From: Acetobacter orientalis
GTDB taxonomy: Bacteria; Pseudomonadota; Alphaproteobacteria; Acetobacterales; Acetobacteraceae
Direction: 5' to 3'
Length of the DNA: 64,000 nucleotides
Assembly: GCF_000963965.1 (NCBI RefSeq)
Contig: NZ_BAMX01000017.1
Location: 1-64,000 of the forward strand
Of the stretch, positions 42,140-47,200 are shown piece by piece. The position numbers and the translations under genes are program-made. Under the pieces are notes generated by a model. The model was not told the DNA's origin. It ran no database searches and worked only from the letters and a program-made list of their open reading frames with translations. Position 1 is the stretch's first letter. Each line of letters begins with the position of its first letter.

Positions 42140-42595
42140 TTAGCTTAAAAGAGCTTTAACAAGGCCATTTGCACGGCCCATATCAAGGGCTGCACCAAAC
42201 TTACCTTTAAGGGCGGCCATAACCTTGCCCATTTCTTTCATGCTGGTGGCACCTGTTTCAGCCACAGCGTCCTTAACGGCAGCCTCAAGAGCAGCATCGT
42301 CCATTTCCGGGGGCAGGTATTCCCGAATAATGGCAATTTCGCCTTCTTCTTTTTCTGCCAATTCGGGGCGCGCTGCATCACGGTACATGGTAGCAGACTC
42401 GGTGCGAGATTTTACCATGCCGCGCAGCGCTGAAATGGCTTCATTTTCATCAAGCCCTTCCCCACCCTTAGCACGACCTGCAATTTCTACGTCCTTCATT
42501 TTGGCCGTGATCATGCGGATAACCCCCACACGCCCGCTTTCCCCGGCTTTCATTGCCACTTTGAGATCAGCCATCAGGCGCTCACGTAAAGACAT
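42140..42595 (-). CDS. GatB/YqeY domain protein
   Basis: 151 aa from the ATG at 42595, with GGAG 6 bp upstream; a GTG two codons earlier is less likely. It is a helical protein (MSLRERLMADLKVAMKAGES, RMITAKMKDVEIA, EIAIIREYLPPEMDD) resembling the tRNA-binding tail of the GatB amidotransferase subunit. Its cellular role is not settled. It starts the yqeY-dnaG-rpoD cluster and is divergent from carA, sharing the 178-bp region that contains the twin inverted repeats. Confidence 0.9.
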   Translation of the reverse strand: MSLRERLMADLKVAMKAGESGRVGVIRMITAKMKDVEIAGRAKGGEGLDENEAISALRGMVKSRTESATMYRDAARPELAEKEEGEIAIIREYLPPEMDDAALEAAVKDAVAETGATSMKEMGKVMAALKGKFGAALDMGRANGLVKALLS

Positions 42596-42660
42596 GACCA
42601 CTCCATCCTTTTACTATCTGTTTATGCCACCACGTTTTACCGTGGCGCAAAATCCTCAGA

Positions 42661-42677
42661 TGGGAAGAAATTTCCCA
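42661..42677. promoter_or_regulatory. operator-like inverted repeat, copy 1
   Basis: 17 bp: TGGGAA-GAAAT-TTCCCA. It lies in the region between the divergent yqeY and carA genes, 66 bp from the yqeY start. It is the exact reverse complement of copy 2, with centres 44 bp apart, close to four helical turns. Confidence 0.7.
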
Positions 42678-42704
42678 CCTTGCGTTTTCCCGCCCTCTTC
42701 TTTG

Positions 42705-42721
42705 TGGGAAATTTCTTCCCA
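42705..42721. promoter_or_regulatory. operator-like inverted repeat, copy 2
   Basis: 17 bp: TGGGAA-ATTTC-TTCCCA, extended by one G-C pair (42704/42722). It ends 51 bp before the carA ATG. Together with copy 1 it could be a paired protein-binding site, or the two copies could pair with each other as an 18-bp stem in RNA. Confidence 0.7.
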
Positions 42722-42772
42722 CTTAAGGTTCAGGCTGCTACAAGACACGCTACGGGAGGAACAACATACCCC

Positions 42773-44182
42773 ATGCCTATGTCAATCGACACTATTATCG
42801 CCCGCCTTGGCGGCCCCGAAGCAACCGCACGCCTAACAGGCGTTGGTACGGAAGCCATTCGCAAGTGGCGACAGGCCCAGAGTATTCCCTCCCGCCATTG
42901 GCCGGTTATTGCGCATGCCACAGGCCTGTCTTTAGCAGACCTACAGCCCGCAGCCCCAACGCACACAGCCTCCCCCGCCCCAACACAGGGCGGTAGCACA
43001 ACAGGATCATCCATGCCTCACGCTCGCCCGGATGGCGCAACAGCCGCCCTTGTTCTTGCCGATGGAACCGTTCTTTGGGGTAAAGGCTTTGGTGCCTTCA
43101 CCAAACAGCCCTCCATTGGCGAGATTTGCTTTTCTACAGGCATGACCGGCTATCAGGAAACCCTGACCGACCCTTCTTTTGCCGGGCAGATCATCACCTT
43201 CACCTTCCCGCATATCGGCAATGTGGGCGTTAACCTAGAAGATGAAGAAGCCAGCCGCATTGCCGCCCGTGGCCTTGTTGTAAAAGAAGACATTACAGAG
43301 CCCGCAAGCTGGCGCGCAAAAGCCCCGCTACAGACATGGCTGCAAGAGCAAAATATTTCTGGCATTGCCGGGGTAGATACACGCTCCCTCACCCTGAAAA
43401 TTCGGGATGGCGGGGCACAAAGTGCAGCCCTTTACTACCCCGAAGATGGTAAATTTGACCTAGACGCCCTTTTGACCGCCACCAAAGCATGGCCCGGCCT
43501 TGAAGGTATGGATCTTGCAAAAGAGGTTACCTGCAAAGCCCCCTACACTTGGTCAGACAGTGTATGGCAGTGGCCAACAGGTAGTCGCCCGGTTGATGGC
43601 AAACGCCGCAAGGTTGTTGCGGTAGATTACGGCGCAAAACGCAACATTCTGCGCTGCCTTGTTGCTGCCGGGTGCGACGTAACCGTGGTGCCCGCCACCA
43701 CAACAGCCAAAGAAATTCTCGAACTCAAGCCCGAAGGCGTGTTCCTCTCCAATGGCCCGGGCGACCCCGCAGCAACTGCCGGTTACGCCGTACCCGCTAT
43801 TAAAGGGGTGCTCGATGCAGGTATTCCGCTATTTGGTATCTGCCTTGGCCATCAGCTTTTAGCACAAGCGCTAGGCGGTAAAACCTACAAGCTAGCCCGT
43901 GGCCACCGTGGCGCCAACCAACCCGTAAAAGACCTTTCAACTGGCCGTGTAGAAATTACCAGCCAGAACCACGGTTTTGCCGTTGATGCCGACAGCCTGC
44001 CAGCCGATGCACACGTTACGCATGTAAGCCTCTTTGATGGGTCAAACGAAGGCTTGGCCTCAGACCGTTATGCGGCATTTTCTGTGCAGTATCACCCAGA
44101 AGCAAGCCCCGGCCCATCAGACAGCTTTTACTTGTTTGAACGCTTTGTGGCGTTGATTGATGCGCATGCCAGCAAAAACTAA
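42773..44182 (+). CDS. carA: carbamoyl-phosphate synthase small subunit with N-terminal helix-turn-helix domain
   Basis: 469 aa from the ATG at 42773, with GGGAGGA 12 bp upstream. Residues 1-60 (IDTIIARLGGPEATARLTGV, then EAIRKWRQAQSIPSRHWPVI) have the pattern of a Cro/YdaS-like DNA-binding domain. A 25-residue Pro/Thr/Ser/Gly linker follows. The canonical CarA starts at about residue 82 (MPHARPDGATAALVLADG); its ATG at 43013 has its own AGGA 6 bp upstream. The glutaminase domain has the nucleophile in GICLGHQLLAQALGG and the His/Glu in YHPEASPGPSDS. It releases ammonia from glutamine for CarB in arginine and pyrimidine synthesis. Confidence 0.95.
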   Translation: MPMSIDTIIARLGGPEATARLTGVGTEAIRKWRQAQSIPSRHWPVIAHATGLSLADLQPAAPTHTASPAPTQGGSTTGSSMPHARPDGATAALVLADGTVLWGKGFGAFTKQPSIGEICFSTGMTGYQETLTDPSFAGQIITFTFPHIGNVGVNLEDEEASRIAARGLVVKEDITEPASWRAKAPLQTWLQEQNISGIAGVDTRSLTLKIRDGGAQSAALYYPEDGKFDLDALLTATKAWPGLEGMDLAKEVTCKAPYTWSDSVWQWPTGSRPVDGKRRKVVAVDYGAKRNILRCLVAAGCDVTVVPATTTAKEILELKPEGVFLSNGPGDPAATAGYAVPAIKGVLDAGIPLFGICLGHQLLAQALGGKTYKLARGHRGANQPVKDLSTGRVEITSQNHGFAVDADSLPADAHVTHVSLFDGSNEGLASDRYAAFSVQYHPEASPGPSDSFYLFERFVALIDAHASKN

Positions 44183-44195
44183 TCTGCCCCAGCCA

Positions 44196-44268
44196 GCCAC
44201 AAACACTTTGTTTGTGGCACCGCTTTGCACCCTTTCTCTTCTTTGCTCTTTCAGCCCCCTAGGGGCTG
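44196..44268 (+). promoter_or_regulatory. two hairpins between carA and carB
   Basis: GCCACAAACA-CTT-TGTTTGTGGC (44196-44218) is a perfect 10-bp stem; CAGCCCC-CTA-GGGGCTG (44252-44268) is a perfect 7-bp stem ending 21 bp before the carB ATG. Neither has a T run, so they may stabilise or process the carAB message rather than end it. Confidence 0.6.
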
Positions 44269-44289
44269 CCTGTCAGGACTGAACCTACC

Positions 44290-47200
44290 ATGCCAAAACG
44301 GACAGACATTCGCTCCATTCTCATTATTGGCGCAGGTCCCATTGTTATCGGGCAGGCCTGTGAGTTCGATTATTCCGGCGCGCAAGCCTGTAAAGCCCTG
44401 CGGGAAGAAGGCTACCGGGTTATTCTGGTTAACTCCAACCCAGCCACCATTATGACAGACCCCGGCCTGGCAGACGCAACCTACGTTGAGCCCATTACGC
44501 CAGAGTTTGTTGAGCGTATTATTCTCAAAGAAAAACCAGATGCCATTCTGCCCACCATGGGCGGGCAGACGGCACTCAACACCGCAATGGCGCTTGATGC
44601 ATCCGGCTTTTTGAAAAAACACGGCGTTGAACTCATTGGTGCCGATGCAGAGGTCATTGACCGCGCAGAAGACCGCCAAAAGTTCCGAGAAGCCATGGAC
44701 GCCATTGGCATTGAAAGCCCCCGCAGCTTCATTGCGCACACGTTGGCAGAAGCGAACGAAGCGCTCAAAGAAATTGGCTTCCCCACCATTATCCGCCCCT
44801 CCTTCACCATGGGTGGGTCTGGTGGCGGCATTGCCTACAACCGCGAAGAATTTGAGCAGATTGTTACCTCTGGCCTAGATGCCTCTCCCACCACAGAAGT
44901 GCTGGTTGAAGAGTCCGTACTGGGCTGGAAAGAATATGAGATGGAAGTTGTGCGCGACAAAGCCGACAACTGCATCATCATCTGCTCCATCGAAAACATC
45001 GACCCCATGGGCGTGCATACCGGTGACTCTATTACCGTTGCCCCAGCCCTGACCCTGACAGACAAAGAATACCAGCGCATGCGCGATGCCTCTTTGGCAT
45101 GCTTGCGCGCTATTGGGGTAGAAACGGGCGGGTCTAACGTTCAGTTCGGTATCAACCCCAAAGACGGGCGCATGGTGGTTATTGAAATGAACCCCCGCGT
45201 CTCCCGCTCTTCTGCACTTGCGTCTAAAGCAACAGGCTTCCCTATTGCTAAAATTGCGGCAAAGCTGGCTGTTGGCTACACGCTAGACGAACTTAAAAAC
45301 GACATTACCACCACAACCCCGGCCTCTTTTGAGCCGACCATTGACTATGTTGTGGTTAAAATTCCGCGCTTTACGTTCGAAAAATTCCCCGGCGCACCGG
45401 CTCTCCTGTCTACCTCCATGAAGTCTGTGGGCGAGGCAATGGCCATTGGCCGCTCCTTCCCCGAAGCCTTGCAAAAAGGCCTGCGCTCCATGGAAACCGG
45501 CCTGCACGGCCTAGACCCGGTTGAACAGCCCGGCGATGGGGGGGAAGACGCCTTCCGTGCAGCCCTGTCTCAGCCGCGGCCAGAGCGTATTCTTATGGCA
45601 GCCCAAGCCCTACGTGCTGGCTTGTCTGTAGAAGACATTAACGAAGCCTGCCATTTTGAGCCTTGGTTCCTGCGTGAGCTTGAAAAAATCATTCACGCAG
45701 AACGTCAGGTTGAAAACCACGGCCTACCGCGTGACGCACAAAGCCTGCGCCGCTTAAAAGCCCTCGGTTTTTCAGATGTGCAGCTTGCGCGCCTTTCTGG
45801 CCTACAAGCCGATGAAGTAGCAAAACTGCGCACCGAAGCCGGTGTGACCCCCGTTTACAAACGCATTGATACCTGCGCGGGTGAATTCGCGTCCAGCACG
45901 CCCTACATGTATTCAACCTATGAAGGCATGTTTGCACCGCCAGTATGCGAAGCAGACCCAACCAACCGCGACAAAATTGTTATTCTCGGCGGTGGCCCCA
46001 ACCGTATTGGCCAAGGCATTGAGTTTGACTATTGCTGTGTGCACGCAGCCTACGCCCTGCGTGAAGCCGGGTTTGAGACCATTATGGTCAACTGCAACCC
46101 CGAAACGGTTTCAACAGACTACGACACATCAGACCGTCTGTATTTTGAACCGCTTACAGCAGAAGATGTGATTGCCCTCATTCAACGTGAGCAGCAAAAC
46201 GGCAGCATCAAAGGCTGTATTGTCCAGTACGGCGGCCAAACCCCTCTCAAGCTGTCACACGCTCTTGAAAAAGCAGGTATTCCGCTTCTAGGCACCCCAG
46301 CCGATGCCATTGACCGCGCAGAAGACCGTGAGCGCTTTCAGGCCATGCTGCATAAGCTGGGCCTGCGTCAGCCAGAAAACGGTATTGCACGCAGCCCGCA
46401 AGAGGCTGAAGATGTGGCTGAGCGCATTGGCTACCCGGTTGTTGTCCGCCCCTCTTATGTGCTGGGTGGTCGGGCTATGGAAATTGTGTACGACCGTCAG
46501 GCGCTGCAACGCTATATGCGCGTTGCGCTCCAGCTTGCTGGGGCAGAAGTTGCCAACGGCCCCGTGCTGATTGACCACTACCTAAACGACGCAATTGAAG
46601 CCGACGTAGACTGCATTTCAGACGGTACAGAAGTGTATGTCGCTGGCGTGATGGAACATATTGAGGAAGCAGGCATTCACTCAGGCGACAGCGCCTGTGC
46701 CCTGCCGCCCTACACCCTCTCTCCCGCTATTGTCACTGAGCTAAAAGCCCAGACCGAGGCCATGGCGCGTGAATTGGGCATTGTTGGCCTCATGAACGTT
46801 CAGTACGCCATCAAAGACCAAGACATTTTTGTGCTTGAGGTTAACCCCCGCGCGTCTCGTACCGTGCCGTTTGTTGCAAAAGCCACGGGCGTACCTGTTG
46901 CTAAAATTGGTGCACGCGTTATGGCCGGCGCCAAACTGACCGACTTCAACCTCGATGACCGTGCCGTAACCCCGCATGTTGCCGTGAAAGAAGCCGTCTT
47001 CCCCTTCAACCGCTTTGCCGAAGTTGACATTATCCTTGGCCCAGAAATGCGCTCAACGGGTGAAGTCATGGGGCTGGACACATCGTTTGAACGTGCATTT
47101 GCCAAGTCTCAGCTTGGTGCTGGTGTACGCCTGCCTACCTCTGGTACGGTCTTTTTGTCTGTGCGCGGCAACGACAAAGCACACCTGCCAGCACTGGGGC

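Follow-up and report, generated by a model that had tools for sequence, protein, structure and literature searches.

The carA gene and its N-terminal domain

We analyzed a window of 64,000 nucleotides from Acetobacter orientalis, in which the gene for the small subunit of carbamoyl-phosphate synthase, carA, is present in a long form of 469 amino acids (42773..44182, plus strand) that consists, according to the open reading frame and HMM matches, of a helix-turn-helix (HTH) domain, a linker and CarA. The ATG at 42773 is in frame with CarA and the stop codon occupies 44180-44182; a second in-frame ATG at 43013 is the first codon of the usual CarA. The CarA part is an equivalog-domain match to TIGR01368 (454 bits versus a cut-off of 307), and residues C357, H441 and E443, which we take to be the CarA catalytic triad, are invariant across 42 fused CarA sequences.

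Residues 5-58 (42785..42946, plus strand) match the NCBIfam entry NF046037, 'carph-isopro', with 72.7 bits (2e-20), exceeding the curated cut-off of 38. The Pfam families P22_Cro (PF14549; 23.2 bits, E 5.7e-5) and YdaS_toxin (PF15943; 22.1 bits) match below their gathering scores of 30.2 and 30, respectively, and a profile of 35 domain sequences finds the phage Cro structures 5w8y (5e-5), 3bd1 (1e-4) and 2hin (1.5e-3). Judged by these matches the domain is a Cro/YdaS-like HTH, as an earlier note on this DNA had read it, and the HMM search also confirmed the family name that the note had given, carph-isopro. The putative recognition helix, placed by alignment to Cro at residues 24-34 (VGTEAIRKWRQ; 42842..42874, plus strand), contains A28, R30, K31, W32 and R33, all invariant among the fused sequences. 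The domain is followed by a linker whose sequence is rich in Pro, Thr, Ser and Ala (42947..43012, plus strand).

The dN/dS of the domain was 0.02-0.09 and that of the CarA core 0.06-0.13, with the domain lower in all 10 usable pairs, several of which are near saturation at synonymous sites. Eleven pairs, out of 29 genus loci, were computed against the carA of the window, and the eleventh (L188) was left out since its core failed to align by position. The low values in the 10 usable pairs indicate that the domain is under selection as a protein. They also argue, together with the strong Shine-Dalgarno sequence ahead of the ATG at 42773 in 30 genus loci, against the reading that the extension is an annotation artefact and that translation proceeds from 43013 only; the internal start that this reading needs does exist, but we regard the reading as highly improbable. 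In the window, the Shine-Dalgarno sequence of the long form is GGGAGG at 42754..42759 (plus strand), and the energy at this first start averages -10.1 across the 30 genus loci. Chance or artefact as the source of the extension was ruled out by the dN/dS together with the family-wide conservation.

Distribution of the fusion

In the genus Acetobacter, the domain is present in 46 of 49 genomes; those without it are G534 (68% complete), G537 and G538. The genome G529 has the domain, but its carA frame (L193) is broken; the frames of L010 and L101 are broken as well, be it in reality or by sequencing error. Across the Acetobacteraceae, 115 of 120 genomes have a domain match, which lies above the NF046037 cut-off in 113 of them; one of these 113, G116, has the domain only as a stand-alone protein of 82 amino acids. 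All 30 of the best family loci that were fetched (L082-L111, including that of the window) are CarA fusions, the remaining family loci being counted as fusions by frame length only. In other genomes without the fusion, carA is missing, partial or at a contig end in the assembly. A record labelled Acidobacteria (L022) contains an Acetobacteraceae-like HTH-CarA and is probably mis-binned.

Class-wide, the domain matches in 115 of 385 genomes, in 73 of them above the cut-off, and none of the 47 domain loci outside the Acetobacteraceae that were tested against CarA is a CarA; the 47 comprise 29 loci and 18 of 20 rechecked ones, the other two, also negative, belonging to the family. That 28 carA genes of other families are unfused follows from comparing their places with the class-wide domain matches. 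The earlier note stated that CarA normally has no such domain; in the Acetobacteraceae the fusion is the rule.

A palindrome pair upstream of carA

The 17-bp palindrome TGGGAA-N5-TTCCCA stands twice ahead of carA, as a distal copy at 42661..42677 and a proximal copy at 42705..42721, which we regard as putative operators. They are the only two exact copies in the 2.9-Mb genome of A. orientalis. Both copies, with at most one mismatch and mostly 44 bp apart, are found upstream of carA in 30/30 genus loci, which are the best-matching 30 of the 46 domain-bearing genus genomes, that of the window included. We extended the comparison to 78 fused loci (80 minus the duplicates L087 and L169), which are interrelated and of which 30 come from one genus. 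When two mismatches are allowed, one or more copies lie within 200 bp upstream in 74 of them and at least two in 66, and 61 have an exact copy, the paired sites standing mostly 38-50 bp apart. The two controls, the adjoining 200 bp farther upstream and the same stretch in reversed order, contain the palindrome in 0/78 loci. It is retained at 68/72 fused loci after removal of near-copies of the upstream stretch, and at 44/48 outside the 30-locus genus set, although two of the 48, L004 and L007, bear the name Acetobacter and could belong to the genus of the window. The relaxed core GGAA-N5-TTCC is present at 77/78 fused loci versus 2/78 in the control stretch. Four fused carA genes have no close palindrome match upstream; L017, L022 and L099 keep only the relaxed core, and L096 is without even that. 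At the 28 unfused alphaproteobacterial carA genes of other families, neither the relaxed core nor the full palindrome with up to two mismatches was found (0/28 each).

The 120 family genomes contain 115 exact sites, distributed over 76 genomes, versus 10 for the backward pattern. Among the 75 exact sites listed, 68 stand 18-135 bp upstream of the best domain match of their genome and seven are elsewhere; 16 further sites were located, three at carA and 13 elsewhere, 11 of the latter in G072. In total, 91 of the 115 exact sites were located, 20 of them away from carA. The 11 exact palindromes in G072, none of which is at its carA, share one spacer in nine cases and have a near variant of it in two; the repeats L210, L213, L216, L218 and L219 carry TGGGAAACACCTTCCCA with flanks 68-85% alike to the first, and from these five flanks the copies look like a repeated element.

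The A. orientalis genome has four sites with one mismatch, whose surrounding genes were named by eye. Two of them lie within coding frames, one resembling an ornithine/lysine decarboxylase, which is loosely linked to arginine, and the other an efflux pump; the third is close to the 5' end of a sigma-factor-like frame, and the fourth is flanked by thioredoxin-like and uvrA-like genes. With up to two mismatches, 103 sites were found in the genome versus 142 for the backward control. A wider regulon for the palindrome was therefore rejected, the decarboxylase site being intracoding. The operators stand in the intergenic region that carA has in common with a divergent gene, YqeY/GatB-like by eye (42140-42601, minus strand), which may be co-regulated.

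In 30 short-leader loci, i.e., those with no more than 15 nt between the proximal site and the start codon, a TTG precedes the proximal site by six bases (T in 28, T in 27 and G in 25 of 30, counts converted from percentages), and a -10-like element follows the 17-bp site (A at the second base in 26/30). The proximal site thus fills the 17-bp spacer between the -35-like and -10-like elements, and the ATG sits about at the expected transcription start, so that in these loci the long form may be translated from a leaderless mRNA. The genus loci have a longer leader, a strong Shine-Dalgarno sequence and a proximal site further upstream, where it plausibly covers the -35 element. A candidate -10 region of the window, CTGCTA at 42735..42740 (plus strand), was recognized by eye and has counterparts shortly after the proximal operator in genus loci; a sigma-70 promoter scan of 42560-44400 returned no promoter.

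Absence of the domain and the site, and possible covariation

A tree built from 46 CarA cores places the four sequences without the domain as two pairs nested among the fused ones, the branch of G029/G116 being long. The domain has therefore probably been lost twice. Upstream of carA in G538, G029 and G116, no palindrome with up to two mismatches was found within 400 bp. For G537 only 38 bp of upstream sequence are available, within which there is no site, so the co-loss of domain and site rests on three genomes. Within the fused set, 3/3 loci with a residue other than Q at position 34 have at least two mismatches in the palindrome, versus 4/73 loci with Q. This comparison used 76 of the 78 loci with a residue picked after the fact, and the covariation of residue 34 with the site mismatches is only suggestive.

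A putative enzyme-repressor

We consider it likely that HTH-CarA is an autorepressor that binds TGGGAA-N5-TTCCCA in its own promoter, and that the internal start probably also yields ordinary CarA. The earlier note had envisaged a metabolic enzyme whose DNA-binding tag could report the state of glutamine or carbamoyl phosphate directly to promoters. Of this, the metabolite signal is hypothetical, and the link to a promoter is strongly supported at the level of sequence by a palindrome pair, not mentioned in that note, that is conserved with the fusion, occurs exactly nowhere else in the genome and was not found at unfused carA. Two of the features expected of an autogenous enzyme-repressor are seen in the sequence, namely an enzyme that keeps its catalytic residues while bearing a putative DNA-binding domain, and a conserved specific site at the promoter of its own gene. 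The carA product would accordingly be bifunctional, an enzyme and a putative DNA-binding repressor, whose Cro-like domain would bind the palindrome as a dimer at one or two copies in the promoter. Bound HTH-CarA would then block RNA polymerase and repress its own gene, closing a single-gene feedback loop; the position of the sites is what suggests repression as the sign of control. The E. coli enzyme forms a (CarAB)4 oligomer, and we speculate that two sites, i.e., four half-sites, would suit its four CarA subunits and that pathway ligands shifting the oligomeric state of the synthase could tune repression.

As a rule, palindromes in promoters are recognized by separate regulators, and a separate repressor or activator could likewise read this one, with the CarA-fused domain having another DNA target or a protein contact. 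Such a regulator would have to account for exact sites that are specific to carA in the A. orientalis genome and were found at 0/28 unfused carA genes, for a site that is missing together with the domain in nested lineages, and for the different palindromes that accompany the differently fused domains of HisZ-like and TorD-like proteins described below. We therefore find this explanation improbable. We also see little chance that HTH-CarA binds the site but activates the promoter or loops it architecturally without repressing it; paired sites mostly 38-50 bp apart would permit looping, but a protein bound to the proximal site that fills the spacer in the short-leader loci should exclude the polymerase. 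Autorepression by HTH-CarA remains the reading that we prefer.

A candidate internal start

The ATG at 43013 would give a short CarA (43013..44182, plus strand), a candidate proposed from the conservation of Met in the linker, and is preceded by the Shine-Dalgarno-like ACAGGA at 43001..43006 (plus strand; energy about -4, i.e., weak). A linker Met is present in 64 of the 74 loci with a delimitable linker, which could not be delimited in 4/78. Outside the genus set, it occurs in 34/44 loci versus 9.0 expected from the Met frequency of the core, and 72% of the linker Mets (n=36) have a Shine-Dalgarno energy of -5 or lower, compared with 21% of the Mets in the core and 16% of the remaining linker codons. 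In the genus set, the Met is present in 30/30 loci versus 5.7 expected, but 0/32 linker Mets reach this energy, compared with 20% of the Mets in the core and 17% of the remaining linker codons; only the mean of the linker Mets is lower, at -3.8 versus -2.2 for other linker codons and -1.8 for core Mets. The codons ACA GGA are invariant in the 30 genus loci, and GGA accounts for 120/1379 Gly codons.

These data suggest that a second, domain-less CarA is made from the internal start, with more support outside the genus of the window than inside it. The long form could also be the sole product, with the internal ATG and the Shine-Dalgarno-like sequence being relics of the original CarA start. The unfused ancestor would have started there, and the internal Shine-Dalgarno sequence in the genus is weak compared with that of the first start, with no linker Met at the energy that 17% of other linker codons reach. 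The Met has nevertheless been kept in most loci despite diverging linkers, its energies outside the genus surpass those of other linker codons and core Mets, and the ACA GGA pair is invariant in the genus despite the low share of GGA; we thus hold relics to be possible, if rather unlikely. With a second product, the supply of the enzyme would be partly uncoupled from the dose of the repressor. The earlier note had named a short CarA from 43013 only as the alternative; since that start is conserved, the short form may come in addition to the long form rather than in its place.

Relation to known systems

PutA, NadR and BirA are autogenous enzyme-repressors that have an enzyme and a DNA-binding domain in one polypeptide and act on genes of their own pathway. 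HTH-CarA would work alike from one polypeptide, but it differs from them in the enzyme and the domain, in having its own gene as the sole exact putative target in the A. orientalis genome, and in the candidate second product without the domain. Phage P22-type Cro and YdaS HTH proteins resemble the CarA domain in the profile match and the palindromic site; they are stand-alone phage repressors, whereas the CarA domain scores below the Pfam gathering scores and is fused to a housekeeping enzyme. The NF046037 entry covers the same domain, over its cut-off, and provides a name only, without operator, function or internal start.

Transcription of carAB in E. coli is under the control of ArgR, PurR, RutR, IHF, PepA and PyrH (PMC6245113). 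The enzyme is the same and there, too, enzymes act at the promoter, namely PepA and PyrH, but ArgR, PurR, RutR, IHF and PepA bind from outside (PMC6245113), whereas HTH-CarA seems to have a DNA-binding domain of its own. BzdR has an N-terminal DNA-binding domain, a linker and an enzyme-derived domain whose enzymatic activity was lost in evolution (PMC3602430); its architecture is like that of HTH-CarA, but CarA keeps its catalytic residues.

No description of a CarA with a DNA-binding domain was found in the literature searched, which lies mostly outside subscription journals and is without preprints, nor was the name 'carph-isopro' found in the same scope, and no literature relevant to a fused YdaS was among the matches listed. 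The putative DNA partner of the domain, the palindrome pair at the carA promoter, is the new result here. If true, the proposed loop would mean one-gene control of carbamoyl phosphate, the common precursor of arginine and pyrimidines, in the family to which the acetic acid bacteria belong. It would also assign a function to a domain family known by name only so far, and make compact natural feedback parts available.

The same domain on other proteins

Ten domain proteins were scanned by HMM. Ccr, CoaBC, ArgB, GlmU, SerA, PdhA and the NAD(P)H-hydrate repair enzyme scored above curated cut-offs, while HisZ (two loci) and a TorD-like chaperone are best-match names with scores below their own cut-offs, and several of the domain matches themselves are below the NF046037 cut-off. 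The domain is N-terminal on HisZ-like proteins (L142-L147, L254-L257), ArgB (L150, L151, L250, L251) and CoaBC (L148, L149, L158, L253), where the names of L142, L145, L148 and L150 come from HMM matches and the others were assigned by eye. Further HTH fusions (L136, L140, L156, L159, L160) involve the NAD(P)H-hydrate repair enzyme, crotonyl-CoA carboxylase/reductase, GlmU, SerA and PdhA. TorD-like proteins with an N-terminal HTH are encoded at L152, named by the sub-cut-off HMM match, and at L153 and L263-L268, named by eye.

Upstream of hisZ in L142-L144, which belong to one family, there is a paired TTCATA-N3-TATGAA, the distal copy of L144 being imperfect; the three genomes have six exact copies, five of them at hisZ, versus none for the backward control. 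A clear palindrome pair was not found at the seven other hisZ-like loci (L145-L147, L254-L257). The palindrome CATAAG-N5-CTTATG stands upstream of three of the eight TorD-like genes in exact form (L263, L264, L266) and with one mismatch in L265, and was not found upstream of L152, L153, L267 and L268. By eye, argB (L150, L250, L251) and coaBC have imperfect upstream palindromes; palindromes also lie upstream of argB in L151 and nnr in L136, and a single short one upstream of glmU. No palindrome was found upstream of nnr in L258, nothing convincing upstream of serA and pdhA, and the stretch inspected for ccr was coding. Such an association between a fused domain and a palindrome upstream of the gene that encodes it is, as far as sequence can tell, well shown for CarA, fairly for one HisZ group and one TorD-like group, and a lead for the rest.

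We lean slightly towards the view that the Cro/YdaS-like domain is a portable alphaproteobacterial module, which on the N-termini of enzymes such as CarA, HisZ, ArgB, CoaBC and others would form one-gene feedback circuits with a gene-private palindrome, carA yielding the enzyme without the domain as well. This offers a general and testable rule, i.e., where a Cro-like domain is found on an enzyme, a gene-private palindrome should be sought at its own promoter.

In other Alphaproteobacteria, the domain is also N-terminal on mitofilin/Mic60-like membrane proteins (L112-L135, L154, L155, L157), a naming that comes from Pfam for L112 and L124 only and by eye for the others, not all of which are certain. 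No literature on mitofilin with a helix-turn-helix in Alphaproteobacteria was found in a search that covered few subscription journals and no preprints. These proteins raise the question of whether the domain fused to mitofilin is a membrane-anchored HTH.
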